In this document: piece after piece, positions 1,235 through 20,938 of the stretch
Layout of the letters: each line of letters opens with the position of its first letter
Numbering within the stretch: position 1 is the stretch's first letter
Source: Hyphomicrobiales bacterium
Lineage (GTDB): Bacteria > Pseudomonadota > Alphaproteobacteria > Rhizobiales > Rhizobiaceae
Direction: 5' to 3'
Length of the DNA: 46,018 nucleotides
Assembly: GCA_021775455.1 (NCBI GenBank)
Contig: JAJFHU010000001.1
Span: forward strand, 1-46,018
Program-made: the position numbers and the translations under genes
The notes under the pieces: model-generated
Told to the model about the DNA's origin: nothing
What the model saw: only the letters and a program-made list of their open reading frames with translations
Databases searched by the model: none

Positions 1235-1873
1235 TTAGTCGACTTGGCACCCTTCAAAATCAAGCGTCAGGTTTTTGGTGACAAACTCGATATCTTGCAA
1301 CAACAGTGAATCGATTTTATCCCGGGAAATTCTGGAATCTGAAGAAAATTCTATAAACCGAGCATTGTGCATATGGTAGATGACTGTTGCAGCAACCGAA
1401 GTATCACAACAAAGATCCACGATCTTGCGATCCTTCAGTTGATTGAGCAGTCTAGCCAAGCGATCAATGAGTTCCTGCTCCAAAGCGGCAAACCCCTGGC
1501 CGAAGGTTGAGTTTCCTTCAAGAATGGATATGGCCAATACATGCGCCCATGTTCTTCGATCCAGGTAGGAAAATGCATGATCGAAGATGGTTGTTGAATA
1601 CATCGAGATGGCAGACATGGCATTTGAGAATTCTTGTGCCAGGATTTTGTCAATCTTGGTAATAAGATGACGGTCGCTTTCGGCCACAAGAGACAACAGC
1701 AGGCCACCTTTTGAGCCATAATAATTGTAGACGGTCATCGCCGAGAGATCAGCAGCGTCCGCAATCGCCTCGATTGTGACATCGCGATAATTGCTGGTTC
1801 GAACTTGCAGACGCGCAGCTTCCAGAATTCGCCGCTGCCTCTCTTCTTTCTGTTTTGCTCTAAGTCCGGTCAT
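1235..1873 (-). CDS. TetR/AcrR-family transcriptional regulator
   Basis: 212 residues, the usual TetR length. Residues 12-60 form the DNA-binding domain: a Lys/Arg-rich helix, then a helix-turn-helix around residues 33-55 with the typical VYNYYGSKGGLL segment. The remainder is the helical ligand-binding and dimerisation half, which varies too much to indicate the effector. The gene is divergent from the ABC importer operon starting at 2055. The 181 bp between them hold a TTTAGT-A-ACTAAA palindrome that may be its operator. It probably represses the importer and dehydrogenase operon until the substrate or a metabolite binds; that role is inferred from position. Confidence 0.85.
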   Translation of the reverse strand: MTGLRAKQKEERQRRILEAARLQVRTSNYRDVTIEAIADAADLSAMTVYNYYGSKGGLLLSLVAESDRHLITKIDKILAQEFSNAMSAISMYSTTIFDHAFSYLDRRTWAHVLAISILEGNSTFGQGFAALEQELIDRLARLLNQLKDRKIVDLCCDTSVAATVIYHMHNARFIEFSSDSRISRDKIDSLLLQDIEFVTKNLTLDFEGCQVD

Positions 1874-1938
1874 TTTTTCCGTTGCTTAATTCATGCAGGA
1901 ATTGGCGATAATATGGAAACTATACCCAGTCTGAAAAA

Positions 1939-1951
1939 TTTAGTAACTAAA
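1939..1951. promoter_or_regulatory. Candidate TetR operator palindrome with adjacent promoter
   Basis: TTTAGT-A-ACTAAA is a perfect 6+1+6 palindrome in the intergenic region between the TetR gene and the importer operon. A TTGACT hexamer follows at 1960-1965 and could serve as a -35 element for the operon. The matching -10 (TTTACT or TACTAT near 1983-1990) is poor. The assignment to the TetR protein is inferred from position only. Confidence 0.4.
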
Positions 1952-2054
1952 AATTTTTATTGACTACAAATTGCTAATGGCATTTACTATCTAAATGATA
2001 GGCCAAAGAAATCAAAAATAATGTGGCCAGGGCAACATCAACAGGAGAGGTATC

Positions 2055-3122
2055 ATGAAAATTGAAGGTCTCATTGCGAGAATTATGGCTGGCTTTGCGC
2101 TGGCAGTATCGGTTGTAGTTGGCGCAACTGCTGCCGAGAAGGTGAATGTAGGCATTTGTGTTTCATGGCCGGGTTATGCAATGTTGAAGGTGGCTGAAGA
2201 AAAAGGCCTTTCCCCGGATTTGGAGTACAACTTCACTTTGTTTGAAGATCCGATTGGTGGGCATTTGGCAACGGCAGCCGGGCAGATTGATGTTTACATG
2301 TGCACCGGCGACTATACTCCTCTAATCGCAGAGCGTGGCACTGATGTAGTGAATGTCGCCTTTACTAATCCGTCTTACGGCGTTGATCACATAATATTCT
2401 CACCCGGTGTAACCGCGGAAAACATCAAGGGGCAGAAGGTGGCTGCGCCACAGGCATATATTGGTCATTTGCTTATGGGCCTTATGCTCGACAGCATTAA
2501 TGTAGACGTTGGTGACGTCGAATGGGTCAACCTGAACTCCGACGAGGCCGTCGGACCAATGATGTCTGGAGACCTTGCGGCCGCGTATTTGTACGAACCG
2601 TGGATATCAAAGGTATTGGCAAATCGCGAAGGTGCATACAGCGCAATCAATACGGGTGATCCTGCGATGTTGAAGACCGGAATTTTTATGGACGTGATCT
2701 ACATGAACAAGAATTTCGTCAAGGATCGTCGTCAGGTAGCGCTGGATGTTATGAAAGCCCGCTGGGACTCGGTTCAATATTGGCATGACAATACTGAGGA
2801 AGTTAACCAACTGTTGGCGGATTATCTTCAATGGCCAGTTGAAGATATCGGTTTTGTGATCGGAACCAACGGCAAATTCTTCGAAGGTGGTATTTACATG
2901 TATGATTTCGATGAAACTGCCCGGGTATGTGGAGCGCTGGACGGTGATCCGCCATTTGGACTCGGTAACGGCAGCATGGTCGACGTTGTCACGTTCATCA
3001 ATGAATGGTGGGTCAAACTAGGCCTCATGAAAGAGATCGTTGATTCCTCCAGTGCGGTGGACTGCTCTTTGGTAAAAGACCTAATTGCAAGCGGTTATCG
3101 TCAGTCCATATCAGCAAACTAG
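2055..3122 (+). CDS. NitT/TauT-type ABC importer, periplasmic substrate-binding protein
   Basis: 355 residues. A typical signal peptide (positive start, hydrophobic core, cleavage near ATA-A at residue 27) sends the protein to the periplasm. The mature part resembles the NrtA/SsuA/ThiY (NMT1-like) class of type II binding proteins: an early segment around GICVSWPGYAM, then the SGDLAAAYLYEPW region in which a Glu-Pro pair follows a stretch of small residues. This class binds small solutes such as nitrate, sulfonates, pyrimidines or other nitrogen compounds, and the substrate cannot be read from sequence. The start has a strong GGAGAGG site. A hairpin with T-rich tail follows the gene, so it may be expressed above the permease and ATPase. 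Confidence 0.85.
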   Translation: MKIEGLIARIMAGFALAVSVVVGATAAEKVNVGICVSWPGYAMLKVAEEKGLSPDLEYNFTLFEDPIGGHLATAAGQIDVYMCTGDYTPLIAERGTDVVNVAFTNPSYGVDHIIFSPGVTAENIKGQKVAAPQAYIGHLLMGLMLDSINVDVGDVEWVNLNSDEAVGPMMSGDLAAAYLYEPWISKVLANREGAYSAINTGDPAMLKTGIFMDVIYMNKNFVKDRRQVALDVMKARWDSVQYWHDNTEEVNQLLADYLQWPVEDIGFVIGTNGKFFEGGIYMYDFDETARVCGALDGDPPFGLGNGSMVDVVTFINEWWVKLGLMKEIVDSSSAVDCSLVKDLIASGYRQSISAN

Positions 3123-3136
3123 TCCTTATCACCGAT

Positions 3137-3164
3137 GGGGTGCTCCGGCACCCCTTTCATTTTT
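3137..3164 (+). terminator. Intra-operon hairpin with T-rich tail (attenuator or 3' stabiliser)
   Basis: GGGGTGC-TCCG-GCACCCC forms a perfect 7-bp stem with a tetraloop, followed by TTTCATTTTT. It lies 14 bases after the binding-protein stop and before the permease. In importer operons such structures commonly stop part of the transcripts or protect the upstream mRNA, giving an excess of binding protein. Confidence 0.75.
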
Positions 3165-3270
3165 AATTATGCCTGTTTCGTTTTGACAAACGCCGTTTGT
3201 GGGTGATGATGGTGTTGCAAAATTTACGTTTGGTAAGCCCATGTGGGTCGAACAGATTGGAACCGCTATC

Positions 3271-4098
3271 ATGTCGGCAGACTTAAACGAACCAATCCGA
3301 AATTCGGCTCGCCGGGTCACCATCCGAAAGCCAGTATCACGAAGTACATCCATTCTTCTGGGTATAGCCATTTGGGTCATCTTTTTTACGGCCTGGGAGT
3401 TGGCAGTTATCTATGAGAGCGTCAATCTCCTGCTGGTGCCACCGCCGGAGAAGGTTTTGGGTACGCTCTATGAACTTTTGATAGGGGGTCGGTTTCCGGG
3501 TGACATACTGGTTAGTGTTTTCCGAGTACTGGCTAGTTTTGCAGGAGCCTGTTTGTTAGCTGTACCACTAGGTATTCTAATGGGAACATTCCCCGCTGTT
3601 GAATCGTTCTTCAATCCATTCGTTTCCGCCTGGAGGTATCTGCCGGCGCCAGCCTTCATTCCGATACTACTGATGTGGTTGGGAACCGGTGAAGGACCAA
3701 AGTTGGCTCTTTTGTTCATTGGTGTGGTTTTCTTTCTGATTACGATGGTAATGGACTATACGCGGCAGGTCCGGATCGAGTTGATCGAGACTTCGTTGAC
3801 CCTTGGAGCAAACCAGAGACAAGTGTTGTGGACCGTAATTGTACCGGCAGTGCTACCAAACGTTGTAGTTGCCATGCGCCAGATGCTCGCAGTGAGTTGG
3901 ACCTATCTAGTCATTGCTGAGATCGTCGCCTCCACGACCGGCATTGGAGCTATGATGATGCGCGCACGAAGATTCCTGCACACTGATGAGATCATGGCCG
4001 GGATTTTGGTTATTGGCCTGCTGGGTCTGTTGTTCGATGTGCTGTTTCGATGGCTGCATCGTGTGCTGTTTGGTTATTTGTATAATCAGGGGCGATAG
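3271..4098 (+). CDS. NitT/TauT-type ABC importer, permease
   Basis: Inner-membrane permease of the BPD_transp_1 (SsuC/TauC/NrtB) type, about 275 residues from the ATG at 3271. The frame is open back to a GTG at 3199 and includes an ATG at 3241, but neither has a ribosome-binding site, whereas GGA precedes 3271. After a basic N-terminus come about six hydrophobic helices. The cytoplasmic EAA-type loop, which contacts the ATPase, is seen in the segment ETSLTLGANQRQVLWTVIVP. It pairs with the binding protein at 2055 and the ATPase at 4108, forming a complete importer. The exact start is uncertain. Confidence 0.88.
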   Translation: MSADLNEPIRNSARRVTIRKPVSRSTSILLGIAIWVIFFTAWELAVIYESVNLLLVPPPEKVLGTLYELLIGGRFPGDILVSVFRVLASFAGACLLAVPLGILMGTFPAVESFFNPFVSAWRYLPAPAFIPILLMWLGTGEGPKLALLFIGVVFFLITMVMDYTRQVRIELIETSLTLGANQRQVLWTVIVPAVLPNVVVAMRQMLAVSWTYLVIAEIVASTTGIGAMMMRARRFLHTDEIMAGILVIGLLGLLFDVLFRWLHRVLFGYLYNQGR

Positions 4099-4107
4099 GA
4101 GATTAGC

Positions 4108-4929
4108 ATGCCGAGCACGAACACATTGCGACAGACTGATATCACCAAATTGATTGTTGAAAGAGTGGGGAAGGTTTTTACACTTGCCGACGGCCAGGAA
4201 ATTAATGCAATTTCAGATGTGAGCTTTTCGGTCAAGCGGAATGAGTATTGTGTGCTGCTCGGACCGTCCGGTTGCGGAAAATCAACCGTTTTGAGGATGA
4301 TTGCCGGTTTGGAAACACCCACCTCTGGGACAATGTTGCTCGATGATGAACTGATTCTGGGGCCTGATCGCGACCGGGGTATGATCTTTCAGAACTACAC
4401 GTCCTTCGATTGGTTGACTGTTGAGAAGAATGTCGAATACGGCATGAAGTGCAATGGTGTTCCGGCAAAAGAGCGTAAGGAAATGGCGGCAGATTTCATT
4501 GATCTGGTTCGGCTAACCAAGTTTAAAAATGCCTATCCGAGCCAATTGTCAGGCGGTATGAAACAGCGGGTGGCTATCGCACGAACTCTTGCCAACAAAC
4601 CCGGCGTTTTGCTGATGGATGAACCGTTTGGTGCATTGGATGCTGAAACTCGCTGGAACATGCAGGAACTCATGATCTCAATTTTGGAATCGACGGATAC
4701 CACCGTGGTGATGGTGACGCACGATATTGAGGAAGCTTTGTTCTTGGGCGACCGGATCGTTTTCTTTTCAAGCCACCCCGGTACAATTTTAGAAGACGGC
4801 CCAGTCGCATTCAAAAAGGGTCAAAGAATTGGCGTCAAAGAGGATGCTCTTGTGATGAAGGGCTACGTTGAAGCAGAGCGTCATATCATGGCTTTAATGC
4901 GCTCCCAAAGACCGACGACAGATGAATAG
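4108..4929 (+). CDS. NitT/TauT-type ABC importer, ATP-binding protein
   Basis: 273 residues of the SsuB/TauB/NrtD class, which powers uptake by ATP hydrolysis on the cytoplasmic face. Walker A is GPSGCGKST (residues 52-60), the Q-loop Gln is residue 95, the signature LSGGMKQR is at 147-154, Walker B is LLMDEP (168-173) and the H-loop His is residue 205. All key residues are intact. AGGAG lies seven bases before the start, and the permease ends nine bases upstream. A C-terminal tail of about 60 residues follows the catalytic core, as is usual in this group. Confidence 0.92.
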   Translation: MPSTNTLRQTDITKLIVERVGKVFTLADGQEINAISDVSFSVKRNEYCVLLGPSGCGKSTVLRMIAGLETPTSGTMLLDDELILGPDRDRGMIFQNYTSFDWLTVEKNVEYGMKCNGVPAKERKEMAADFIDLVRLTKFKNAYPSQLSGGMKQRVAIARTLANKPGVLLMDEPFGALDAETRWNMQELMISILESTDTTVVMVTHDIEEALFLGDRIVFFSSHPGTILEDGPVAFKKGQRIGVKEDALVMKGYVEAERHIMALMRSQRPTTDE

Positions 4930-4947
4930 GGGTAATCCAATAGACTG

Positions 4948-5730
4948 ATGGGGAACGTACAATACGATTTTTCGGGAAAAACTGTTCTGGTAACCGGAGG
5001 TAGCAGGGGCATTGGCTACGGCATTGCAGAAGGATTTGCCATGGCCAGTGCAAATGTTGTCATTCTTGCTGAAAACAATGACGTGCAGGCATCGGCAGAG
5101 AAACTGGCAGATGAAACGGGTGCTTCAGTTCGTGCAATCCAGTGTGATATTACAGATGTAACATCAGTCCGTGCAGCGACTGAATCATTGGATAGTATTG
5201 ATGTTTTGATCAACAATGCGGGTTTGGAACGCATTACACCGATTTTTGATGAAGGTAATGATGTTGAGAAGACTTTTCGTCGGATAGTCGATATCAACAT
5301 TATGGGCACATTTTTTGTGACTCGTTACGCTGCACCAAAAATGCCTCCCGGTTCCGCCATGATTTTTACATGTTCGATTTGGAGTCGAACTGCCGTACCT
5401 GAATTTTCAGCTTATTGTAGCTCAAAACACGCCAATCTGGGTTTTATGCGTTCCATGGCGCATGAATTGGCGTCTAAAGGCATACGTGTAAATGGTGTCT
5501 GCCCAGGTTGGGTACGGACGGAGGCGTCTATGCTGTCACTGAAGAAAATGTCAATCCGTGAGGCTCGGGCTGAACAGGAACTACTGGATGAAATTACAGG
5601 AGCACAAGTTTTGGATGGACTGATGGAACCCAAAGATTTGGCATCTACCTACTTGTTTTTAGCTTCTGAGGCATCCTCCAATATTGTCGGGCAAGCCCTC
5701 ATGGTTGACCGCGGAGAGGTACAGGCATGA
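4948..5730 (+). CDS. Short-chain dehydrogenase/reductase (SDR) 1
   Basis: 260 residues, classical SDR length. The dinucleotide-binding motif TGGSRGIG is at residues 16-23, NNAG at 89-92, the catalytic Ser near 143 and YxxxK at 156-160. The enzyme should oxidise or reduce an alcohol/carbonyl group with NAD(P). A C-terminal loop with many charged residues (about 190-225) probably shapes the substrate pocket. The ribosome-binding site is weak and distant (AGGGG about 15 bases upstream), so it may depend on translation from the ATPase gene 18 bases before. Its stop overlaps the next start (ATGA), implying that the two dehydrogenases are made together and may act on consecutive intermediates. Confidence 0.9.
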   Translation: MGNVQYDFSGKTVLVTGGSRGIGYGIAEGFAMASANVVILAENNDVQASAEKLADETGASVRAIQCDITDVTSVRAATESLDSIDVLINNAGLERITPIFDEGNDVEKTFRRIVDINIMGTFFVTRYAAPKMPPGSAMIFTCSIWSRTAVPEFSAYCSSKHANLGFMRSMAHELASKGIRVNGVCPGWVRTEASMLSLKKMSIREARAEQELLDEITGAQVLDGLMEPKDLASTYLFLASEASSNIVGQALMVDRGEVQA

Positions 5731-6464
5731 GCATTGCCGGGAGTACAGCATTGGTTACCGGTGCAAGCCGGGGCATTGGTCGAGCTTGTGCGGAGTCCCT
5801 GGCATCCAAAGGGGTGAAGGTAACAATCGTCGACCTCCTGGATTGTAGTGAAACCGTTGAAGCAATAGCAGCTTTGGGTGGCAAAGCAGACCAAGGGATT
5901 TGCGATGTTGCTGATGAACAATCGGTGAAGGCTGTGTTCGAAAGGCATTTTGCAGTACCGGGTAGGCTTGATTTTCTCGTTCATTGTGCAGGCATAATTC
6001 ATGAGCGGCCATTGCTCGAAACACCCATCGACGAATTTGACAAAGTAATTGCGGTTAATTTGCGTGGAACATTTCTGATTGGTCGGGAAGCGCTTCGTTG
6101 CATGTCTACAACAGGAAGCGGACGTGTTGTTCTCACATCTTCAGACATGGGATACTATGGACGCGAAACATTCTCACCCTATGTGGCTTCCAAGCATGGG
6201 GTAATGGGACTGGTTAGATCTTGGGCTAAAGAATTCGCCCCGGCAATTACAGTAAATGCACTTTGCCCCGGCCCGATTGATACGGCAATGTTGGATACCC
6301 AAAATATGAGCCCAGATTGGCGTGAGAGAGAACTCGACATTCCACTGAGACGTTTTGGACAACCAGAAGAAATTGCTGAAATGGCAACATTCCTTTGCGG
6401 TGAGGGCGGTGCTTACATCACCGGTCAGGGAATTGGAATAAATGGTGGGAGTGTTATGCCTTGA
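5727..6464 (+). CDS. Short-chain dehydrogenase/reductase (SDR) 2
   Basis: 245 residues. TGASRGIG at residues 11-18 binds the cofactor. The usual NNAG is replaced by HCAG at 86-89, a tolerated variant. A Ser near 138 and YxxxK (Tyr152, Lys156) complete the catalytic site. The C-terminus ends in the common GQGIGINGG-type segment. It overlaps SDR 1 by four bases and has a GAGAGG site. The two SDRs are clearly diverged from each other and so probably have different substrates. The last bases overlap a candidate 51-residue ORF in another frame. Confidence 0.9.
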   Translation: MSIAGSTALVTGASRGIGRACAESLASKGVKVTIVDLLDCSETVEAIAALGGKADQGICDVADEQSVKAVFERHFAVPGRLDFLVHCAGIIHERPLLETPIDEFDKVIAVNLRGTFLIGREALRCMSTTGSGRVVLTSSDMGYYGRETFSPYVASKHGVMGLVRSWAKEFAPAITVNALCPGPIDTAMLDTQNMSPDWRERELDIPLRRFGQPEEIAEMATFLCGEGGAYITGQGIGINGGSVMP

Positions 6465-6597
6465 CAATAGCACTGACTTCAAAGCACAGGTTCAACAATG
6501 CGATCTTGGTAAGTTGGATATTTATCCCGGAGCCAAGCGGCGGTTTGAGGGAGAAATAAAACATGCATACGTACTACCTGGAAAGGTTCAGTCATGA
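6442..6597 (+). CDS. Candidate small protein (51 aa) coupled to the deacetylase
   Basis: An ATG at 6442, preceded by TTGGAATAA, opens a 52-codon frame that overlaps the end of SDR 2 and closes at TGA 6595-6597, sharing ATGA with the deacetylase start at 6594. It fills most of what would otherwise be a 129-base gap in a tightly packed operon. The peptide begins MVGVLCLDNSTDF, has a central KLDIYPGAKRRFEGE segment and ends YVLPGKVQS. No transmembrane helix or known family is recognised. The four-base overlap and ordinary codon choice favour a real gene; absence of a known family argues for caution. It might instead be the remnant of a longer gene. Confidence 0.4.
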   Translation: MVGVLCLDNSTDFKAQVQQCDLGKLDIYPGAKRRFEGEIKHAYVLPGKVQS

Positions 6598-7475
6598 TCA
6601 GTAACCCGATACCTTGGCCAAATGGTGCAAAATGTGCAGTTGCAATTACCTTCGACATGGATGCAGATAGCCTGATCCACATTGCGAAACCAGACGATGC
6701 TCACCAACGGTTGTATCCCGTATCCATGGGGCGTTACGGGCCAACCGTTGCCTTGCCACGAATTCTCGAAACCTACCGGAAATTCGGTTTGAAACAATCA
6801 TTCTTCATTCCCGGTTGGTGCCTGGAAACCTATCCGGAAACAGTCGAGGCTATTTTGAAAGATGGCCACGAAATCGGCCATCACGGATGGATTCATGAAG
6901 ATCCGATTTCAACTATCGGCAATCAACGAGAATGGGTCGAAAAGGCATTGGAATCACATAAAAAAATTTGCGGTGGCAAACCGAGAGGGTATCGCGCTCC
7001 TGTCTACAACATTACCCAGGAAGTAGTTGATCTGCTTATTGAACATGGGTTCGAATATGACAGTTCACTAATGGCTGACGACATTCCTTATCTAATGAAG
7101 AGTGCGGAAGGCGAGTTATATGAAATGCCCGTTCACTGGGGCACTGATGACTGGCCACCATTCGCACATTTTGACGAAATTGGTTACTTGATGCCCATTC
7201 GCGGCCCTTCAGCAGGGCTTCAAGGATTTTGGGAAGAATTCGATGCTCAATATGAAGCAGGTGGTTTTTTCATGCTGGTTGTTCATCCATTTCTTACCGG
7301 TCGTTTGGCTCGTTGGCGACTAGTGGATCAATGGATCGAAAAAACATTAGATACTCATGATGTCTGGTTCGCCCCCCTTGAGGAGATATGCGCGCACGTC
7401 AAACAACTGAAAAGTAACGGCGCATATACACCGCGCATTGAACATTTGCCCTACTACACTGAGCCACAACGATAG
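6594..7475 (+). CDS. Polysaccharide-deacetylase-fold hydrolase (PuuE/HpPgdA-like)
   Basis: 293 residues of the carbohydrate esterase 4 (NodB) fold. Metal and catalytic residues are visible: TFDMDAD (Asp21, Asp23), HEIGHHGWIH (residues 92-101) and GYRAP (131-135). A late LVVHPF segment supplies the distal His. There is no signal peptide, so it works in the cytoplasm. Cytoplasmic members of this subgroup (PuuE allantoinase, Helicobacter HP0310 type) hydrolyse amide or cyclic amide bonds of small molecules rather than cell-wall sugars. With an importer for small solutes in the same operon, an amidohydrolase role is more likely than peptidoglycan deacetylation; that is inference. A GGAAAGG site precedes the start. 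A solo IS30 end follows directly. Confidence 0.85.
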   Translation: MISNPIPWPNGAKCAVAITFDMDADSLIHIAKPDDAHQRLYPVSMGRYGPTVALPRILETYRKFGLKQSFFIPGWCLETYPETVEAILKDGHEIGHHGWIHEDPISTIGNQREWVEKALESHKKICGGKPRGYRAPVYNITQEVVDLLIEHGFEYDSSLMADDIPYLMKSAEGELYEMPVHWGTDDWPPFAHFDEIGYLMPIRGPSAGLQGFWEEFDAQYEAGGFFMLVVHPFLTGRLARWRLVDQWIEKTLDTHDVWFAPLEEICAHVKQLKSNGAYTPRIEHLPYYTEPQR

Positions 7476-7486
7476 CAGAATTATTT

Positions 7487-7529
7487 AATGTGTTGCGTCG
7501 ACCGGTTGAGGTGGCAGCTACTAGCGGAC
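7487..7529 (+). mobile_element. Solo right end of an IS30-type element (relic)
   Basis: This stretch closely matches the right end of the IS30 element at 20443-20483. It shares TGTTGCGTCGACCGGTT, then GAGGTGGCAG, then CTAGCGGAC, with small differences, and it keeps the last codons of the transposase (CVASTG and stop). No other part of an IS is present nearby. It begins right after the deacetylase stop codon and marks an old insertion that has been almost entirely deleted. Confidence 0.75.
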
Positions 7530-7608
7530 AAATATAGAGTAAACCTATTGGCACCTAAATACCTGAAAATCATGTTATTACCCGCTGTGGGGTCGACGAA
7601 CCAAGCGG

Positions 7609-9267
7609 TTACAGGGAACGTTGTGTGACCCCAATTCCGGGGGCCCTGCCTACTGCTGCATTCTCCGGCGAAAGCGGGGTTATACCCCTTATAATGTCGC
7701 TTGCGCGTTCCGCCAACATCATGGTTGGAGCATTGAGGTTTCCGTTCGGTTCGTTTGGAAAAACAGAGCTATCGACTACACGTAGATTTTCCAATCCGTG
7801 CACCTTCAACCTCGGGTCAATCACTGCATTTTTATCAATTCCCATTTTGCATGTACCGCAAGGATGATACGTACTTTCAAGATTGTCACGAACAAAGGCA
7901 TCAATTTCCTCATCAGAATTAACATTGGCACCAGGCGTAATTTCACCGGAATTAAACCTAGTCATGGCAGGTTGCTCCATGATCTCTCTGGTTAGTCGAA
8001 CACAATCTCGGAATCCCTTTCGGTCTTCTTCACGATCGAGGTAATTGAACAATATGTCTGGATGTGTGTAGGGATCTGCATTCCTCAACCGCACATATCC
8101 ACGGCTTTTTGGTTTGTTCGGACCCGTGAGTATCATGAAACCGTGCCCTTTGATCGGGCGTTTACCATCGTATCGAACAGCTGCAGGTAAAAAATGAAAC
8201 TGAATATCCGGCCATTCCATTTCAGAAGACGATCGAATAAACCCTCCCGCTTCAAAGTGATTGGTGGCTCCAAGGCCATTCTTAAATAGTAACCATTGAA
8301 TACCTATCAATCCTTTGGCAAACCAATTCATTTTCGAATTTAGTGTAATCGGCTTCTTGCAGCCGTATTGTATGTAAATTTCTGCATGATCTTGGAGATT
8401 TTCACCAACACCCGGCAAGTCATGTACTACTTCTACTCCCGCCTGCTGCAACACCGCGCCTGGACCGATGCCAGAGCGTTGCAGAAGGTGTGGAGAACCG
8501 ATAGGGCCGCTTGCAACAATTACTTCTTTTCTCGCGGTTACACTTACAATCTTTTTACCACGTTCATACTCAACTCCTACAGCTCTGCCATCCTCGATCA
8601 GGATGCGTCTGGTCATTGCTTTAGTTCTGACTTCGAGGTTTGGCCGATCCATCGCCGGTCTTAGGTATGCATTCGCAGCGGACCAGCGGACTCCATCCTT
8701 AATGGTCATATGCATCGGTCCAAATCCCTCCTGCATATATCCGTTCGAATCGTCTGTCCTTATGTATCCGGCCTCTGCGCCCGCTTCTACAAAAGCGCCG
8801 TAGAGCGGGTTCTGCATTTTGTTGCCGTTGTTAACACTCAGTGGCCCGCTTGTTCCCCTATAAGTGGGGTCTCCATTATCAAAAGATTCCGACTTCTTGA
8901 AGTACGGCAAACAACTCGCATATCCCCAGCCGGAGGCTCCAAGTGACTCCCACTCATCAAAGTCACGAGCATTTCCGCGAACATATACTAACCCGTTTAT
9001 TGATGAAGATCCTCCAAGCACCTTCCCACGAGGACAGTGAATACGTCGGCCGTTGAGACCCGGTTCGGGAAGCGTTTCGTACTTCCAATTGTAAGTTTTT
9101 GTGTTCATGGGCATTGAGAAGGCCGAGGGCATTTGGATAATCACGTTACGATCCGAACCGCCAAATTCCAAAACCAGAACCGTATTGTTGGCATCTTCGG
9201 AAAGCCGATTGGCAAGCACACAGCCAGCTGATCCTGCACCAATCACTATATAATCGAACTCTTCCAT
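7609..9267 (-). CDS. GMC-family flavin-dependent alcohol oxidoreductase
   Basis: 552 residues from the ATG at 9267, where the FAD-binding GAGSAG motif falls at residues 10-15 and an AGAGAAG site lies upstream. The frame extends to 9330 but that would overlap the ATPase gene. GMC signature 1 is seen around GKVLGGSSSINGLVYVRG and signature 2 around GSPHLLQRSGIG. The catalytic His is in STYHPCGTCKMG and the partner Asn in GNLNAPTMM. Relatives include choline and other alcohol dehydrogenases, which oxidise primary alcohols to aldehydes with FAD. It is the last gene of the LysR-linked operon, so it may oxidise the imported compound or a product of the ureohydrolase. Substrate unknown. Confidence 0.9.
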   Translation of the reverse strand: MEEFDYIVIGAGSAGCVLANRLSEDANNTVLVLEFGGSDRNVIIQMPSAFSMPMNTKTYNWKYETLPEPGLNGRRIHCPRGKVLGGSSSINGLVYVRGNARDFDEWESLGASGWGYASCLPYFKKSESFDNGDPTYRGTSGPLSVNNGNKMQNPLYGAFVEAGAEAGYIRTDDSNGYMQEGFGPMHMTIKDGVRWSAANAYLRPAMDRPNLEVRTKAMTRRILIEDGRAVGVEYERGKKIVSVTARKEVIVASGPIGSPHLLQRSGIGPGAVLQQAGVEVVHDLPGVGENLQDHAEIYIQYGCKKPITLNSKMNWFAKGLIGIQWLLFKNGLGATNHFEAGGFIRSSSEMEWPDIQFHFLPAAVRYDGKRPIKGHGFMILTGPNKPKSRGYVRLRNADPYTHPDILFNYLDREEDRKGFRDCVRLTREIMEQPAMTRFNSGEITPGANVNSDEEIDAFVRDNLESTYHPCGTCKMGIDKNAVIDPRLKVHGLENLRVVDSSVFPNEPNGNLNAPTMMLAERASDIIRGITPLSPENAAVGRAPGIGVTQRSL

Positions 9268-9295
9268 TTGAACTTCTCTTTTATGTTGGATTCGC

Positions 9296-10078
9296 TTACG
9301 AAATAGCCAGTGCCTTATCCACCTCATCATGAAGGCTGGACATTATTCGCCGCTTCAACTTGACGAACCCGGCACTTGTCGTAACCGTGTAGTCACGTGG
9401 GCGCTTTATGTTCACTGGTATGGTGTCAATAATTCTGCCTGGGCGTGCTGACATCACATAAACAACGTCACCCAGAAACAATGCTTCATCTATGTCGTGG
9501 GTAATGAATAATACTGTCTTGCGTTCTTTTTGCCAGATTTTCAGGAGCAGCTCCTGCATGACCGATCGTGTTTGACTGTCAAGGGCACCGAAGGGTTCAT
9601 CCATCAACAATACCTCCGGATCAACTGCTAGCGCGCGCGCTATGGCCACGCGTTGTTTCATCCCACCAGAAAGTTGTGAGGGATATGAATCACGAAACTT
9701 GGTTAAGCCTACAGCTTCAACATAGTTCGCAGCGCGCTCTTCACGTTCAGCCTTCGAAGTATTGTTCAACGCAAGGCCGAACTCCACATTCTTCTGCACC
9801 GTAAGCCAGGGAAACAGCGAGTAATTTTGTGGCACCATTCCCCTTTCGGGACCGGGTTTTTCAATTAAGGTATCACCGAAAAGTGTCTTACCTTCTGTTG
9901 CACGATTGAGACCGGCGACAAGATCAAGGCAACTGGATTTACCGCAACCTGAAGGCCCCACAATAACAGCGAATTGTTGTTCTGGAATTACGAGGTCAAG
10001 ATTCTCCAATGCAGTAATTTGTGTAGCCTTGCTTTCACCAAACCGCACACTGACATTTTCTAGACGAACTTCAGTCAT
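9296..10078 (-). CDS. Second NitT/TauT-type importer, ATP-binding protein
   Basis: 260 residues. Walker [10 protein letters not shown] is at residues 41-49, with a Q-loop in PQNYSLFPW, then [14 protein letters not shown] and a THD H-loop, all intact. It is the SsuB/TauB-like motor of the second importer and is encoded between its permease (10 bases upstream) and the GMC oxidoreductase (28 bases downstream). AGGA precedes the start. It is similar to but clearly distinct from the ATPase at 4108, so the two importers are not a recent duplication. Confidence 0.92.
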
Positions 10079-10088
10079 GACTTAATCC

Positions 10089-10898
10089 TTACTTTCCAAC
10101 GTATTCCCAAGGCAGCACGAGGCGTTTGATCCACTTGAAGGCCATGTCTGTGATGAGCCCAAGAAAACCGATGACAAAGATTCCGACGAAAATTCCGGCA
10201 GGATCGAGCCCCCGCATCGATTGCAAGATCATGTAACCCAGACCGGAACTGGCTGCGACCAATTCGGCGACAACAAGAAAGGTCCAAGCCCATCCCATCG
10301 TCACTCGAAGTGTATCAAGAACGCCCGATAGAGTTGCCGGAACCAACACCCGGGATACTATCTGACCGCGCGTTGCTCCTAGGGTGTATGAAACATTGAA
10401 CAAGTCAGCATGGACGCCTCGTGCCACATCTGAAACCATGACGATCTGTTGAAAGAAAGTTCCCAGAAAAATTACCGCAACCTTTTCTTCCAACCCAATT
10501 CCGATCCATAAAATAAGTAATGGTATGAGGGACGTAACCGGCAAATAGCGCATAAAGTTTACGACGGGCTCAAGGGCTGCTTGTACAATTTTGAAGCCAC
10601 CCATAAATATTCCTATTGGAATTGCTATTACGGACGAGAGAAAAAACCCCAAGTAAATTTCCGTCAACGAGACGCCTATATGTTTTTGAAGAGATCCGTT
10701 TGACACTTTCTCTACGAACGAATTCCAAACATCAGACGGCGCAGGCAGAAAATCTCGAGTTACAAAGCCCGTGTAGGTAGCAATTGCCCAGCAAGCGAGA
10801 ATTGTTCCCGATACAAGGATTCCTGCTCCGAACTCGGTCTTTCGCGGTATCGCCAATTTTGGTGTTAGATAGCGATCTAGAAAACTCATGGTGGACAT
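10089..10898 (-). CDS. Second NitT/TauT-type importer, permease
   Basis: 269 residues with about six transmembrane helices. The coupling loop is seen in the segment NVSYTLGATRGQIVSRVLVP. The start at 10898 has an ACGGAG site. It follows the binding-protein gene by 24 bases and precedes the ATPase, giving the standard order for this importer class. It delivers solute from the binding protein at 10923 across the inner membrane. Confidence 0.9.
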   Translation of the reverse strand: MSTMSFLDRYLTPKLAIPRKTEFGAGILVSGTILACWAIATYTGFVTRDFLPAPSDVWNSFVEKVSNGSLQKHIGVSLTEIYLGFFLSSVIAIPIGIFMGGFKIVQAALEPVVNFMRYLPVTSLIPLLILWIGIGLEEKVAVIFLGTFFQQIVMVSDVARGVHADLFNVSYTLGATRGQIVSRVLVPATLSGVLDTLRVTMGWAWTFLVVAELVAASSGLGYMILQSMRGLDPAGIFVGIFVIGFLGLITDMAFKWIKRLVLPWEYVGK

Positions 10899-10922
10899 CT
10901 GTCTACTCCGTCTGGTTTTGGA

Positions 10923-11897
10923 TTAGTTCAAGAAAGACCTGTCGATCAAATCGTCTGCACTAAGATCTTTCACTTTGATCCTGCCGAGATCACTCCAAAT
11001 TGTAATCGCGTTGGATATTGTCTCATGAAGAACCCCTGGCTCTGAGGAAGTCCCAAACATTTCGTGGTTACGGGCAACTGTCAGATATTCAATTCCAGAT
11101 GCTGCACCTTTGAATTCATTTGGATCTTCCAACCATCCACCCACGCCATCAGCCATAATCTGAAATGCTTCATCAGGATTACTTTCAACAAATTGCAAAG
11201 CGCGCTCCCAAGCCCGAACAAAGGCTTTAAGTTCTTCTTTGTGTTCTGTTGCGGTATCTTCCAATACTGCGATAACATCGACGATCAATCCGGGGGTTTG
11301 AGAACTATTGATCAGGACTTTCCCATGGTCAGTAGCTGCCCCTTGGCTTAGATGTGGTTCCCAAGTGACTGCAGCGTCAACGCGGTTTGCCGTAAAAGCA
11401 ACTCCGGCATCAGTAGCGGTCATATTTACCATGTTGATATCGTCTTGAGTTAGACCCTCGCGCCGTAACAACGCATTGATGAAAAATTGAGATACAGAGC
11501 CTTCTTCAAAGGCAACAGTGCGGCCTGCCAAATCAGCAACGGTTCCGATGTCTTTGTTTGAAACAACACCGTCCCCACCGTTCGAATTATCTACAGCGAG
11601 AATGTATTTAAGTGGTTTACCTTCGCGCATATATGTTGGAAATTCGTCAGCAGTTGACGCAACAATGTCTATTTGTCCGGCCATCAATGCGCCCATTTTC
11701 AGGGGCGTATTTTCCATGACAGTGAGTTCGATTTCGACACCTTCATCGACAAAGAATCCTTTTTCCTGGGCAATATAGAACGGCCCGTATCCAACCCAAG
11801 TAGAATGGGCCAGTTTCAAAGCATCAGCGTCTGCCGCAACAACTGTCGCGACAGTCATTGCAGCAGCAGCCACCAGGCTCTTAAGCACTTGTTTCAT
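10923..11897 (-). CDS. Second NitT/TauT-type importer, periplasmic substrate-binding protein
   Basis: 324 residues with a signal peptide (MKQVLKSLVAAAAM core, cleavage in the AADADA region around residues 22-26). The mature N-terminus, LKLAHSTWVGYGPFYIAQEKG, is characteristic of NMT1/SsuA-like proteins, and the ATDAGVAFTANRVDAAVTWEPH segment is the usual hinge and ligand-pocket region. The start has a CGGAG site. A gap of 140 bases separates it from the upstream ureohydrolase on the same strand, so it may have its own promoter or lie in one operon with it. The ligand is probably what the ureohydrolase or GMC oxidoreductase consumes, for instance a guanidino compound; that is inference from context. 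Confidence 0.88.
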   Translation of the reverse strand: MKQVLKSLVAAAAMTVATVVAADADALKLAHSTWVGYGPFYIAQEKGFFVDEGVEIELTVMENTPLKMGALMAGQIDIVASTADEFPTYMREGKPLKYILAVDNSNGGDGVVSNKDIGTVADLAGRTVAFEEGSVSQFFINALLRREGLTQDDINMVNMTATDAGVAFTANRVDAAVTWEPHLSQGAATDHGKVLINSSQTPGLIVDVIAVLEDTATEHKEELKAFVRAWERALQFVESNPDEAFQIMADGVGGWLEDPNEFKGAASGIEYLTVARNHEMFGTSSEPGVLHETISNAITIWSDLGRIKVKDLSADDLIDRSFLN

Positions 11898-12037
11898 AGT
11901 TTTCTCCGTTTAGTTCTTTGGCCGTAACTGGCCGTTGGTAGTATGGTAATTAATCAATTCGCGGCGACTAGGTACCCGCGACTACCGCAGGTTTTCAGTA
12001 CCTCTTAACCTTGAAAATTGAACTTGATGCTGGCCAT

Positions 12038-13018
12038 TTATTTTTCACCGCCCTTGCGCGCGTGCATGACCCTACCTATAAAGTTCATTAGTATTTGTGC
12101 TGCTAGAATTGCTGTAGTCCCGGTGTGATCATAATCGGGAGCCACTTCTACAAGGTCGATGCCCACAATAGTACCCTGGTTTGTTAGCCTGGAGATAAGC
12201 TCCAAAACTTCATAATAGTAAAATCCACCATGACTTGGCGTGCCGGTTCCTGGCGCGATTGAAGGATCGAAGCCATCTATGTCGATGGTCACGTAATATC
12301 GCATTCCCTTTGGTATTCTGGATAGGACAGCTTCGACACCCAGTTTTCGAATTTGCCGTACGGACAATATATCCGATCCCATTGCACGGGCATCTTCGTA
12401 ACCTTCACGTGCAGTCGATGATACGTTTCGTATACCTAGTTGGGACAATCCACTTACATATTCTTTTTCAGCGGCTCGTCGCATTGGATTGCCATGCCCG
12501 TTACGGACTCCGTGGCGTTCATCCACAAAATCAAGATGGGCGTCAATTTGTACAATGTGGATGGGCCCATTCACATCGCAATCTTCATCAAATGCATTGA
12601 TGCATGGAATGTTTATGGAATGATCACCACCAAGAATTACCGGCAAAGCACCTGCTTTGAGTATTTTACGAACACCATACTCAATGTTGGCGTGACTGGT
12701 GGTGGTATTGGTATGCACAATATCCGCATCGCCAAGGTCTACAATTTTCACTTCACCAGACGGCAGATAAGTAATGTCATCTTCATAGTCATAGGCACCA
12801 CCATGACCAAATGAGAACAAAGTTGACGCGTCCCGAATAGAACGTGGGCCAAAGCGGGCTCCAGGGCGATATTGCGTGCCAAAATCAAATGGCGCTCCCA
12901 TAATTGCAACATCAGCATCAATGTGATCCCAGTCTTCTACATATGGATTCTTCCCAAATGTAGCAATACCCACAAATGGAAGATTGAGCCGCCCTGTCTT
13001 GTATCCATGCTCCGACAT
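12038..13018 (-). CDS. Ureohydrolase (agmatinase/arginase family), guanidino-compound hydrolase
   Basis: 326 residues from the ATG at 13018 (GGA eight bases before it); the frame extends to 13057 but family alignment favours the later start. All six metal-binding residues of the family are present: His133 in GGDHS, Asp159, His161 and Asp163 in DAHLD, Asp246 and Asp248 in DIDGFDP. The enzyme should hydrolyse a guanidino group, releasing urea, using Mn or Ni. A GHGNPMRR segment (174-181) occupies the usual substrate-loop position. The family includes agmatinase, guanidinobutyrase, guanidinopropionase and the nickel guanidine hydrolase, and I cannot choose among them. Its place at the head of an importer operon, next to a LysR regulator, points to catabolism rather than polyamine synthesis. 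Confidence 0.88.
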   Translation of the reverse strand: MSEHGYKTGRLNLPFVGIATFGKNPYVEDWDHIDADVAIMGAPFDFGTQYRPGARFGPRSIRDASTLFSFGHGGAYDYEDDITYLPSGEVKIVDLGDADIVHTNTTTSHANIEYGVRKILKAGALPVILGGDHSINIPCINAFDEDCDVNGPIHIVQIDAHLDFVDERHGVRNGHGNPMRRAAEKEYVSGLSQLGIRNVSSTAREGYEDARAMGSDILSVRQIRKLGVEAVLSRIPKGMRYYVTIDIDGFDPSIAPGTGTPSHGGFYYYEVLELISRLTNQGTIVGIDLVEVAPDYDHTGTTAILAAQILMNFIGRVMHARKGGEK

Positions 13019-13116
13019 GTTGTTTTCCGTGTCCCATTTAATTGGGTAAATTTGCAACTTTTGATAAGATAAAAAAATATCATTGTTTAAATGCTTACTT
13101 ATAATATTATCTATGT

Positions 13117-14031
13117 ATGCATAATTTTGACGCGAACATTAGTGACATCGATTTGCGGCTGCTACGGGTATTTCAAAGTGTGGTGCGCTACAACGGATTT
13201 TCGGCCGCCCAACAACACCTCGGCCTAACTCAGGCAACAATCAGCAATCATATGAACCAATTGGAAGAACGACTTGGCATGCGATTGTGCGAACGTGGCC
13301 GAAGTGGGTTCTTTCTGACTGAGCATGGCAAACTTGTACATGCAGCAATGCTTGACTTGTTCGGTTCGCTAGAAAGCTTTCGCAGCGTTCTGGGTTCAGC
13401 CAAGGGAGAACTGATTGGCAATCTGCATTTCGGTACCGTCGACGCGATGTACACGAACCCGCAATTCAACCTTGCCGCTGCACTCGGTGAATTCACAAAA
13501 TTTGCTCCTAACGTTTTCCTTGATCTGGATATCGCGACACCTCAAGCCCTTAACCAGGGTTTGCTGAGCGGCCGCTACCACATAGTTCTAACGCCTGAAC
13601 AACCGTATCCAAAATCAATGCGCAGTGTACCGGTTATGAAAGAACGACAGATGCTGTATTGCGGCATTGGGCACCCACTCTTTGAAACTTCTGATGCTAC
13701 GATTGCCCCTGCGATGCTAGCCCAGTTCCAGTTTGCGGGTCGCTCCTACATGAATGAGGAAGAAATTTGTGACATCAAATTCAATTGGGCTTCAGTGACC
13801 GCACACATGGAAAGTACGGCACTGTTGATTAGCTCCGGGCAATACATTGGTTTTTTGCCAGATCATTTTGCAGAAAGATGGACCAGGCGAAATCTGATGA
13901 GGGCACTCTCACCAGACGTTATAGCGTTTAACGACATATTTCATGTGGTATTTCGCCGGAAGGAACAAAACCCAGCTGCCGCGCATTTTGCCGAGTGCAT
14001 AAAGCGACAAACAAGAATGGAGATTGGATGA
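13117..14031 (+). CDS. LysR-family transcriptional regulator
   Basis: 304 residues. The winged helix-turn-helix occupies residues 13-72 (LRLLRVFQSVVRYNGFSAAQ, then TQATISNHMNQLEERLG), followed by a LysR-type effector-binding domain. It is divergent from the ureohydrolase with 98 bases between start codons, the usual arrangement for a LysR activator and its target operon. That gap is very AT-rich and contains GATA-N6-TATC around 13065-13080, a possible binding half-site pair. There is no ribosome-binding site before the ATG at 13117, but a TATAAT lies at 13100-13105, suggesting a nearly leaderless mRNA. It probably activates the ureohydrolase-importer-GMC operon. Confidence 0.9.
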   Translation: MHNFDANISDIDLRLLRVFQSVVRYNGFSAAQQHLGLTQATISNHMNQLEERLGMRLCERGRSGFFLTEHGKLVHAAMLDLFGSLESFRSVLGSAKGELIGNLHFGTVDAMYTNPQFNLAAALGEFTKFAPNVFLDLDIATPQALNQGLLSGRYHIVLTPEQPYPKSMRSVPVMKERQMLYCGIGHPLFETSDATIAPAMLAQFQFAGRSYMNEEEICDIKFNWASVTAHMESTALLISSGQYIGFLPDHFAERWTRRNLMRALSPDVIAFNDIFHVVFRRKEQNPAAAHFAECIKRQTRMEIG

Positions 14032-14128: not shown

Positions 14129-14276
14129 ATGACAGTGTCTCACTTCATAATTTGTTTAAATTGCGACGCATCAAATTTGGTCAATAAAAGGCTCTTTTCA
14201 GCCCTCTAGACTGTATTTCCTCTATGCTTTTGAATGTCAGCATTGTGTTGATGGTGCGGCGTGGAGGGTTGGATAG
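14129..14276 (+). pseudogene. Decayed copy of the small Cys-rich gene (782-1180)
   Basis: From the ATG at 14129 the frame reads MTVSHFIICLNCDASNLVN and stops at TAG 14207-14209. This aligns without gaps to MTAAYIVFCPVCDVSSLVN of the gene at 782, and GG(G/A)TCATCA before the ATG is also shared. Just after the stop, another frame (14208-14276) reads YAFECQHCVDG, which may be a remnant of a Cys-rich C-terminus. The middle of the gene is missing. It lies between the LysR gene and the tyrosine recombinase. Confidence 0.55.
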
Positions 14277-14287
14277 GAGAATGTGTC

Positions 14288-14920
14288 ATGAACACTCTCA
14301 ACCTTCCAATGGTAATCCAGCAACGTCACGCTTGGAACAGGGGCCGTATAATCGGGCAGAAGCGGCCTCTAATGCCTAAGCATGTTTGGGCAATTCGTGT
14401 CCGTTTGGAACTAGCCGAAAACCATCGTGATCTAGCTCTGTTTAATATGGCCGTGGACAGTAAGCTTCGTGGTTGCGACTTAGTATGCTTGAAAGTACCT
14501 GACGTCTATTCTGCGGGCAGGATCAAAGAACGAACTTCGGTAGTTCAGAGCAAAACTGGCAAACCTGTCCAGTTTGAAATCACAGATGGTACAAGAAAAT
14601 CACTTCGTGAATGGATAGGTCATCCAGGAATGACAGGTTGTGATTTCCTTTGGCCAAGCAGGTTTCATGCGCCTGATCATGTTTCGACAAGACAATATGC
14701 AAGACTTGTGAAAGATTGGGTAGCATCGATTGGCTTGGAACCGAGCGCATACGGAACGCATTCGCTCCGAAGGACAAAGGCAGCGCAGATTTACAAGAAA
14801 ACTGGCAATCTCAGAGCTGTTCAGCTTTTACTTGGCCACACCAAGATGGACAGTACTGTCCGCTATCTTGGGGTAGAACTTGAAGATGCGTTAGCTATTT
14901 CAGAAAGTGTGGAAATCTAG
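14288..14920 (+). CDS. Short tyrosine recombinase (phage-integrase family), catalytic domain only
   Basis: 210 residues from the ATG at 14288, seven bases after GGAG (the frame is open to a GTG at 14261). The complete catalytic set is visible: Arg61, Lys89, His158-x-x-Arg161, His184 and the nucleophile Tyr193 in TVRYLGV. There is no separate N-terminal core-binding domain of the usual 80-100 residues, so it is about half the size of a typical integrase. Such short enzymes occur in alphaproteobacteria, but their targets are poorly known. It may act on a nearby site with a partner protein. It lies at the edge of the catabolic island beside a decayed gene. Confidence 0.85.
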   Translation: MNTLNLPMVIQQRHAWNRGRIIGQKRPLMPKHVWAIRVRLELAENHRDLALFNMAVDSKLRGCDLVCLKVPDVYSAGRIKERTSVVQSKTGKPVQFEITDGTRKSLREWIGHPGMTGCDFLWPSRFHAPDHVSTRQYARLVKDWVASIGLEPSAYGTHSLRRTKAAQIYKKTGNLRAVQLLLGHTKMDSTVRYLGVELEDALAISESVEI

Positions 14921-19213: not shown

Positions 19214-19253
19214 GTCCGCTAAGGGTGGTGGTCTCAACCGGTCGACGCAACAC
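19214..19253 (+). repeat. IS30 left terminal inverted repeat
   Basis: The first nine bases GTCCGCTAA and the inner 18 bases AACCGGTCGACGCAACAC match the right end in inverted orientation. The middle portion has diverged and differs by two bases in length. Confidence 0.8.
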
Positions 19254-19266
19254 TTTATGATCTCTG

Positions 19267-20478
19267 ATGAAGATATGGAGTGTTGGAATGGGTTACAGAC
19301 GTCGGATATATTTTACAACAGAACAGAAGTGCGAGATATGGGATCGCTGGCAGCGTGGCTGTTCGATGAGTTCGATTGGACGGTTGTTTGAACGGGGTTC
19401 ATCGTCGATTTATCCGCTACTGTCGCGCACGGGTGGTATTCGTCCACCTGATCGAAGGCGGTCAAGGCTGGCACTGACGCTGGTTGAGCGTGAGGTTATC
19501 TCCAGAGGGATAGCCGCCCTGCGCTCGATACGTTCAATTGCGCGTGAGCTTTGCCGCCCGGCATCCACGGTCAGTCGTGAGATCAGGCGCAATGGCGGGC
19601 CAGACAATTACAGAGCCGCTTGTTCAGATCAGGCGGCCTGGGGTCGTGCGCTTCGTCCCAAACTGTGCAAGCTTTCCGGGAACGCATACCTGCAACGTGT
19701 GATATCGGAAAAGCTTGTCATACACTGGTCACCGGAGCAGATTGCAGGCTGGCTGAAGCGAAGATATCCAAACGAAGAGCATCATCAAGTGTCCCACGAG
19801 ACGATCTATAAAAGCCTGTTTGTCCAGGCCAGAGGCGTGCTGAAGAAGGAATTGATGCAGTATCTGCGCACAAAGCGAACAATACGCCGTTCCAGACATG
19901 CGAGCCTCAAGCGCAACGGGCTGGGTCAGATAACGGATGCGGTGTCGATCCGCGAACGGCCTGCTTGCGTGGAGGACCGTGCCGTACCAGGACATTGGGA
20001 AGGTGATCTGATTGCGGGTAGCAAGAACAGTTACATCGCGACGCTTGTGGAACGCCATACGCGTTATGTGATGCTGGCCAAGGTTCACAACAAAGATACC
20101 GAGAGTGTTGTGTCAGCCCTGATCAAGCAGGCTCATAAACTACCCGGTGAAGTGTACAAGTCGCTTACCTGGGCCAACTGTTCTAATCACCATGGGGCAA
20201 GGAGCTTGCAGACCACAAGCGCTTTACACTTGCAACCGATATTGATGTGTACTTCTGTGAACCGCAAAGCCCGTGGCAACGTGGTTCCAACGAGAATACC
20301 AATGGTCTGCTCAGGCAATACTTTCCCAAGGGCACCGACCTGTCGCTACACTCCCAGGCCTATCTCGACAAGATTGCACGTCAACTCAACGAACGCCCAA
20401 GAAAGACATTGCAATTTGAAACACCAGCAGACAGATTTAACCAATGTGTTGCGTCGACCGGTTAAGGTGGCAGTTTAG
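19267..20478 (+). pseudogene. IS30-family transposase, frameshifted at the second catalytic Asp
   Basis: The first frame gives an N-terminal helix-turn-helix region (residues 20-110) and the first catalytic Asp247 in GHWEGDLIAG. At TW (301-302), where IS30 enzymes have TWDRGKE with the second Asp, the DNA instead reads about 17 extra bases (20175-20197), turning Asp into Ala and shifting frame. The true C-terminal part continues in another frame (about 20197-20465), with [19 protein letters not shown] carrying the catalytic Glu and ending CVASTG. No intact DDE enzyme can be made, so this copy cannot move itself. Confidence 0.85.
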
Positions 20479-20483
20479 CGGAC
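20446..20483 (-). repeat. IS30 right terminal inverted repeat
   Basis: Inverted copy of the left end. It overlaps the last codons and the stop of the transposase frame, as in related elements. The same sequence recurs as a solo relic at 7487-7529. Confidence 0.8.
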
Positions 20484-20938
20484 ATGCAGCGATCGTTATG
20501 TGATTTCCGTTTTACCCCCGAAAGCAGGCATACCGTGAACGCAATCACAGAAGAGTTTTTTACTTCGTCTTGTTTTCGGTAAGTTGGTATGAGAAAATCT
20601 CGAATCGTAAAAAATGGCTCTTTCAGAAATTGCATTTTTAACGTTGTGAACATTCTGAACTATGATGTTAGCCCAAATTCCAATCAAACTGAGTAAGTTG
20701 CAAATGGGGGATATTTTGGGGGATCAGTAAGCAGCATAATCGGTAACATGCTGTTTTATAACAATATTAATAATAGTTCTGGCGGAGAGGAAGGGATTCG
20801 AAATTCAGGGGTGGATCAGCAGCACATTCGTTGCGCGCCAATAGTCTGATCCCATGTGGTTTTCGCACATTTGTTACCCCCACCGTTACCCCAGCTCAAA
20901 GCCATAAGCTGATACATTATCTAAGCATTTGATTTTAT
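20484..20938. other. Gene-poor stretch between IS30 and tRNA-Thr
   Basis: 455 bases with no convincing protein-coding frame. It contains a detached tRNA-Ser 3' end (20780-20802) and is otherwise unrecognised, consistent with the worn edge of an integrated element. Confidence 0.5.
20780..20802 (-). repeat. Detached tRNA-Ser 3' end (probable integration-site scar)
   Basis: On the minus strand this reads TTCGAATCCC, then TTCCTCTCCGCCA, which is the T-arm 3' half, acceptor strand and CCA of a tRNA-Ser. No D-arm, anticodon arm or variable loop precedes it, so it is not a gene. Such fragments arise when an element using a tRNA-Ser 3' end as attachment site integrates and leaves a duplicate. Confidence 0.6.

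Follow-up and report, generated by a model that had tools for sequence, protein, structure and literature searches.

The window, a stretch of 46,018 nucleotides forming positions 1 to 46,018 of contig JAJFHU010000001.1 from a Hyphomicrobiales bacterium, contains at 1235–14031 two facing gene modules that we interpret, with moderate confidence, as a single catabolic unit divided between convergent operons and directed at a small molecule with a guanidine group. The genome measures 3.51 Mb in 62 contigs and is 99.99% complete by computed estimate. The first operon, on the forward strand, comprises an importer (importer A), two short-chain dehydrogenase/reductase (SDR) genes, SDR1 (4948–5730, assigned by family match) and SDR2 (5727–6464, adh_short_C2), and a gene for a CE4-fold hydrolase (6594–7475, Polysacc_deac_1) that may open the ring of a cyclic acylguanidine. 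The second, on the reverse strand, comprises a ureohydrolase (UREO, 12038 to about 13024), a second importer (importer B) and a BetA-like GMC oxidoreductase (7609 to about 9267, TIGR01810), whose start was set at about 9267 because that of the 573-codon open reading frame (ORF) runs into the importer B ATPase gene. An earlier note on this DNA had named these genes and proposed that the two modules converge and serve a joint pathway; the reading frames are open, the families are right, the positions are as given there or close to them, and the operons meet between 7475 and 7609.

The case for a single unit comes from gene neighborhoods in other genomes, which strengthen the joint pathway in that UREO, SDR1, SDR2, and CE4 occur there as single operons; one proposed member, a small ORF discussed below, drops out of it. 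A plasmid search by tblastn found UREO at 80% or more in 15 records, with SDR1 (59–62%) and CE4 (51–54%) both present in at least 12 of them and a BetA-like GMC gene at 70% or more in at least 13. Four layouts are seen among the loci, which are numbered here with the prefix L. Type I, annotated on a Gemmobacter plasmid, reads LysR, UREO, SDR1, SDR2, CE4, a small ORF, an NCS1 permease, and BetA, and an Ensifer adhaerens locus (L100, in a record unannotated there) has LysR, UREO, SDR1, SDR2, CE4, and BetA in the same order; the genes of both modules thus cluster together in these two organisms, as the joint pathway would have it. Type II, annotated in E. canadensis and Roseateles XES5, reads LysR, UREO, an aldehyde dehydrogenase, a small ORF, an NCS1 permease, and BetA; Shinella zoogloeoides (L101) and S. 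fredii (L102) show a spacing similar to type II, with LysR, UREO, and BetA as the only genes identified. Type III, found in Roseovarius and in L004, L062, L197, L198, and the same-genus L064, joins importer A, divergent from a TetR gene, with UREO, SDR1, SDR2, and CE4 in one unit, and in type IV (Shinella HZN7, Roseateles XES5) UREO, SDR1, SDR2, and CE4 are accompanied by other importers. On the Roseateles sp. XES5 plasmid (L095, L116), about 6 kb separates an aldehyde dehydrogenase cassette from an SDR1-SDR2-CE4 cassette, and both include a UREO of their own. Most often the genes run from importer through SDR1 and SDR2 to creatininase or CE4, followed by one or more ureohydrolases. The window combines LysR, UREO, and BetA of type I with TetR and importer A of type III around the shared SDR1-SDR2-CE4 core.

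SDR1 served as the marker gene for a survey of the hydrolase found beside it. Searches of 397 genomes of the order and 372 genomes of the class gave 32 and 9 matching genomes at 1e-62, own genome counted in both, and together 41 rows outside the window genome, through which 35 loci (L197–L231) were fetched; of the 41 rows, two lie within L062 and L067, loci that were already in the set, two share L203, and those of G558, G631, and G778 were left out. Within 8 kb of SDR1, a creatininase gene is found in 17 of the 35 loci, a CE4 gene in 8, both in none, and a ureohydrolase gene in 22; within 3 kb the corresponding numbers are 17, 6, 0, and 19, with neither hydrolase in 12. The larger set of 49 loci, which consists of the window and loci fetched through SDR1, UREO, CE4, or plasmids, contains creatininase in 21, CE4 in 18, neither in 10, both in none, and ureohydrolase in 34. 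Of the 49 loci, the window counted, 39 have an SDR2 relative no more than 2.5 kb from SDR1, as do 27 of the 35 fetched by SDR1 alone; residues Asn-117, Ser-143, Tyr-156, and Lys-160 of SDR1 are invariant across 13 aligned sequences, the window's among them. A control of 79 distant SDR loci (36% or less), taken from other taxa and unmatched, contained creatininase once and neither CE4 nor UREO. Scanning genome contigs with an SDR1 alignment returned mostly generic SDRs, and of the 80 loci kept only L117 (48%) belongs with the SDR1 set, the other 79 being the control just given. Because creatininase near SDR1 occurs in loci that lack CE4, the ring-opening role guessed for CE4 in the earlier note gains support.

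The two creatininases scanned, those of L110 and L112, score 321 and 314 bits to TIGR04448 (cut-off 235), the former also scoring 241 bits to the P. putida creatininase structures. Each of these genes (L110 12586–13356 and L112 7198–7992) has a TetR gene and an importer next to it. Creatininase is not among the window proteins scanned; the remaining genome was not searched for it. The counts invite the suggestion that creatinine itself is the substrate, in which case CE4 would be a creatininase and UREO a creatine ureohydrolase that yields sarcosine and urea. The frequency of creatininase near SDR1, never alongside CE4, would fit this, as would the NCS1 "cytosine permease" genes that accompany some cassettes. 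We nevertheless consider creatinine quite unlikely, since the two SDRs and the GMC oxidoreductase would be left without a role and a human ureohydrolase is described, in an excerpt of its report, as hydrolyzing neither creatine nor guanidinoacetate (PMC9772407).

The CE4-fold enzyme contains Asp-21, Asp-23, His-97, His-101, and Arg-134, which are conserved in no fewer than 95% of 26 sequences, a count that omitted L109, and invariant in 18. These residues fit the Asp-His-His metal motif and the RxP motif of CE4 metal hydrolases. In a tree of 27 of the 28 sequences, those of 250 residues or more, the window enzyme groups with same-genus L103 and L104 (98/95) within a nine-row clade (100/99), to which the SDR1-linked CE4 of L005 also belongs. 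A separate 12-row clade of SDR1-linked CE4 enzymes (99/96) includes same-genus L064, and the SDR1-linked enzymes of L202, L203, L223, and L226 fall outside both. Since CE4 enzymes of the other clade occupy the same operon place in sister operons, we argue that the two clades would perform one common job.

The surroundings of the window CE4 gene point to a recruited origin. An ABC ATPase gene, of polyamine type as read by eye, lies directly upstream of CE4 in L103, L104, and L106, and in L007 an annotated spermidine/putrescine importer lies two genes upstream. The small ORF of the window (6451–6597, forward strand), which the earlier note had counted as a pathway member, is instead a leftover of another gene: from about 6463 it resembles the C-terminal end of that ATPase (47% over 38 residues in L106 and 28% over 39 residues in L104). 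Considered as a conserved peptide, it had given two weak plasmid matches (E 0.7 and 6) before the ATPase tail was recognized. Directly 3' of the CE4 stop codon lies the end remnant of an IS30-family element (7476–7530, no strand assigned), whose 55 nucleotides are 85% identical to the end of an IS30 copy at 20432–20484, with 25 of them 96% identical to the opposite end at 19233–19257. Because the ATPase tail precedes CE4 and the IS30 end directly follows its stop codon, the gene was probably captured from a native same-genus locus and placed behind SDR2, leaving a recombination scar. The fuller IS30 copy, at about 19233–20484, is 12 kb downstream of the remnant, and its transposase ORF (19267–20478) seems by eye to be out of frame in the last third.

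The six metal ligands of UREO are His-146, Asp-172, His-174, Asp-176, Asp-259, and Asp-261, and at least 95% of 81 UREO sequences retain them, L067_18404 and L078_9425 being omitted from the count; the same level holds for 36 sequences of UREO2, the partner ureohydrolase, where one short sequence was omitted. A heteromeric UREO/UREO2 enzyme of the MetCaCb kind was considered and set aside, as a pseudo-subunit is not indicated when both proteins keep the ligands. Among solved structures UREO scores 188 bits to the Deinococcus agmatinase, 160 to GbuA, and 139.7 to GpuA (3nip), and UREO2 of L004 scores 400 bits to the P. aeruginosa 3-guanidinopropionase GpuA and 300 to GbuA. Elsewhere in the window genome there are another UREO (79%), at G000:C42:65336–66286, and a UREO2 relative (62%), at G000:C60:44413–45363; the latter, a GpuA-like ureohydrolase in L232, adjoins an unpaired binding-protein ORF and a LysR-like ORF as judged by eye. 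A DUF1989 protein accompanies creatininase in L207 and L216, where ureohydrolase was not found within 8 kb. TIGR03424 (cut-off 285), the model of a family linked to guanidine use, gives 107 and 102 bits for the DUF1989 proteins of L005 and L008.

The closeness of the L004 partner to 3-guanidinopropionase could also indicate a reductive, pyrimidine-like route, in which an SDR would reduce a 2-aminopyrimidinone of the isocytosine type, CE4 would cleave the resulting dihydro ring to 3-guanidinopropionate, and the ureohydrolase would release β-alanine and urea. In keeping with this, the same-genus CE4 gene of L104 is near dihydropyrimidinase and carbamoylase genes, and that of L107 is near a deaminase gene and a uracil phosphoribosyltransferase-like ORF (the latter by eye). 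We give this route little credence, however, as the substrate ring of creatininase is five-membered, the GMC oxidoreductase would have no role, and to our knowledge the reduction of a pyrimidine ring is not a known SDR activity.

Both modules contain a complete importer of the NitT/TauT organization, with one NMT1/SsuA-type binding protein, one permease, and one ATPase gene, as the earlier note had described. Importer A consists of an NMT1-type binding protein (2055–3122, NMT1_2 and NMT1 above cut-off), a permease (3199–4098, BPD_transp_1), and an ATPase (4108–4929, ABC_tran), all on the forward strand and divergent from a TetR-family regulator on the reverse strand (1235–1873, TetR_N 35 bits), which scores 36.7 bits to the BetI model, far below its cut-off of 201.3. 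On the reverse strand, importer B consists of an ATPase (9296–10078, ABC_tran), a permease (10089–10898, BPD_transp_1), and an SsuA/NMT1-type binding protein (10923–11897), which was scanned with NCBIfam alone and scores 153.1 bits to TIGR01728 (SsuA), just below the cut-off of 163.5. A LysR-type regulator (13117–14031, forward strand; NF040786 75 bits, under cut-off) is divergent from UREO. Identities of 23% between the binding proteins, 35% between the permeases, and 46% between the ATPases bear out that the importers are not recent duplicates. TetR relatives (35–41%) stand beside importer A in L004, L062, L064, L110, L197, L198, and L211, where relatives of the importer A binding protein (62–68%) stand beside TetR and SDR1. 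In L003, L096, L100, L101, and L102, LysR relatives (53–56%) lie beside UREO and BetA relatives (71–74%) lie 3–6 kb from it. Relatives of the importer B binding protein are only 26–31% identical and are found in LysR-linked SDR1 operons. The riboswitch scan of the window at gathering thresholds matched a tRNA only, and the promoter and terminator scans gave no signals above shuffled sequence.

A number of results weigh against a single unit for a guanidine compound. We are not aware of any tested enzyme in the clades considered here. The solved structure nearest to CE4 is that of an uncharacterized deacetylase-fold protein, at 195 bits, followed by H. pylori HP0310 at 110 bits, with the allantoinase structures well behind at 58 and 46 bits. 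HP0310 is reported, in an excerpt of the paper, to have no activity on allantoin (PMC3084791). Neither CE4 nor creatininase lies within 8 kb of SDR1 in 10 of the 35 loci (4 of these on contigs of less than 7 kb), and the chance of zero overlap between the two hydrolases, 0.0019 in the 35 loci and 1.1e-6 in the 49, was calculated with kinship ignored. The His of the creatininase HxE motif is kept in 20 of 22 sequences and replaced by Asn in L110 and L112. Seven of the 15 UREO plasmid records are from E. adhaerens, which is therefore counted repeatedly, and importer B and BetA are optional, being missing from the TetR-type units. In addition, UREO passes the agmatinase model TIGR01230 (185.9 bits, cut-off 174.3), a model that is not specific, as the GpuA-like enzyme of L004 passes with 184.3, and the GMC oxidoreductase passes the choline dehydrogenase model TIGR01810 (785.3 bits, cut-off 732.1). 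The two model matches, together with the best solved-structure match of BetA, a choline dehydrogenase at 626 bits, would be expected if the parts were ordinary ones, namely an agmatinase, a choline dehydrogenase, and a deacetylase serving polyamine and osmolyte use. This appears very unlikely to us: neither a betaine aldehyde dehydrogenase, another aldehyde dehydrogenase, nor BetI neighbors BetA within 1235–14031, CE4 alternates with creatininase, and BetA accompanies UREO in the plasmid records counted above.

Also unfavorable to a single unit is the distribution of UREO. Among 53 loci fetched through UREO (hits G389, G393, and G429 were left out), SDR1 is absent nearby in 50, SDR1 and CE4 are both nearby in only 3, and creatininase is nearby in none; because UREO mostly lies apart from SDR1, it presumably serves other routes too. 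In the UREO tree the window copy falls outside the clade of the genus's solitary copies (10 rows, 99/96), its finer placement being unsupported with the bootstrap unsettled. These loci, together with the separate importer and regulator of each module, would suit two independent modules with unrelated substrates, made neighbors by insertion. The setting gives further reason to consider this, as tested window genes of 1–24300 have no close relative within 29–32 kb beside the trigger factor gene (tig) in three same-genus genomes, and the stretch contains the IS30 copy, the IS30 scar, and an integrase-like ORF (14261–14920). With a tRNA-Thr also present, positions 1–24300 may be a genomic island. 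Trigger factor was used as the anchor after wecA, sought beside the site in seven same-genus genomes, was not found. The shared cluster of UREO, SDR1, SDR2, CE4, LysR, and BetA in Gemmobacter and E. adhaerens speaks against independence, which we regard as unlikely. Further along the window, an M24-type peptidase ORF (25983–27239), of the creatinase fold family, lies between tig and clpP, a position that its homologue also occupies in L233 and L237. In both of these loci tig is followed by pepP and clpP, which were not found within the 6.4 kb examined on that side in L235.

For the single catabolic unit that we prefer, the following reactions, order, and substrate can be inferred from the enzyme families. 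The two importers would take up the substrate or close analogues, and the BetA-like GMC oxidoreductase and the two SDRs would act on its alcohol or carbinolamine positions, altering their oxidation state. Hydrolysis by the CE4-fold enzyme would then convert a cyclic acylguanidine, a creatinine-like lactam, to the open guanidino acid, from which the ureohydrolase would free urea and leave an amino acid. Candidate substrates, suggested on general chemical grounds only, are 2-guanidinoethanol, 3-guanidinopropanol, products of γ-hydroxyarginine, and creatinine analogues. The use of such a compound as a nitrogen source through urea, as the earlier note had envisaged, is weakened, and is a further point on the unfavorable side: in the window genome urease alpha was unmatched and no urea carboxylase reached the cut-off. 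With urease alpha and a complete urea carboxylase both missing from the matches, urea may be waste. A more specific version of the pathway, for which no published description was found and which we offer tentatively as somewhat unlikely, has a guanidino-aldehyde oxidized through its cyclic form, such that the aldehyde would close to a cyclic carbinolamine, be converted by an SDR to a creatinine-like lactam, opened interchangeably by creatininase or CE4, and passed as the guanidino acid to the ureohydrolase with no aldehyde dehydrogenase involved. If so, the sister operons in which an aldehyde dehydrogenase replaces SDR1-SDR2-CE4 (L096 and L116, and perhaps L101 and L102, judged by spacing) would represent a direct route to the same guanidino acid.

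Guanidino compounds are widespread, and many routes for their use are unmapped. The loci surveyed suggest an operon family that recurs and brings together an importer, two SDRs, one or two ureohydrolases, and a predicted ring-opening hydrolase that can be either creatininase or CE4; from this exchange follows a concrete prediction of what the CE4 enzymes in these clades do. By titles and abstract openings, no paper describing this gene set was found in the open PMC literature. The opened records annotate the genes as "agmatinase," "SDR family oxidoreductase," "polysaccharide deacetylase," and "choline dehydrogenase," and such generic names may have kept the pathway hidden.

In the creatinine pathway, a cyclic amidohydrolase opens a cyclic acylguanidine and a hydrolase then releases urea. 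The order of ring opening and urea release proposed here resembles this creatininase-creatinase pathway, and related operons carry creatininases that score above the model cut-off, whereas the window has a CE4-fold enzyme in place of creatininase and a ureohydrolase in place of creatinase and adds two SDRs and a GMC oxidoreductase. P. aeruginosa GpuA (3-guanidinopropionase) and GbuA (guanidinobutyrase) are likewise ureohydrolases acting on short guanidino acids, and the L004 partner is GpuA-like; UREO of the window, in contrast, forms a separate branch and stands beside predicted ring-opening and oxidizing enzymes. The CE4 fold is shared with PuuE allantoinase, whose substrate is a small cyclic imide according to an excerpt of PMC3084791, although beyond the low scores to allantoinase structures the window enzyme reaches only 63.9 bits to the PuuE model TIGR03212 and misses its cut-off of 424.6. 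Several related operons have two neighboring ureohydrolase genes, as does the paired-arginase metformin hydrolase MetCaCb, but UREO and UREO2 both retain the six metal ligands, whereas MetCb is described as a pseudoenzyme in an excerpt of PMC11271267.

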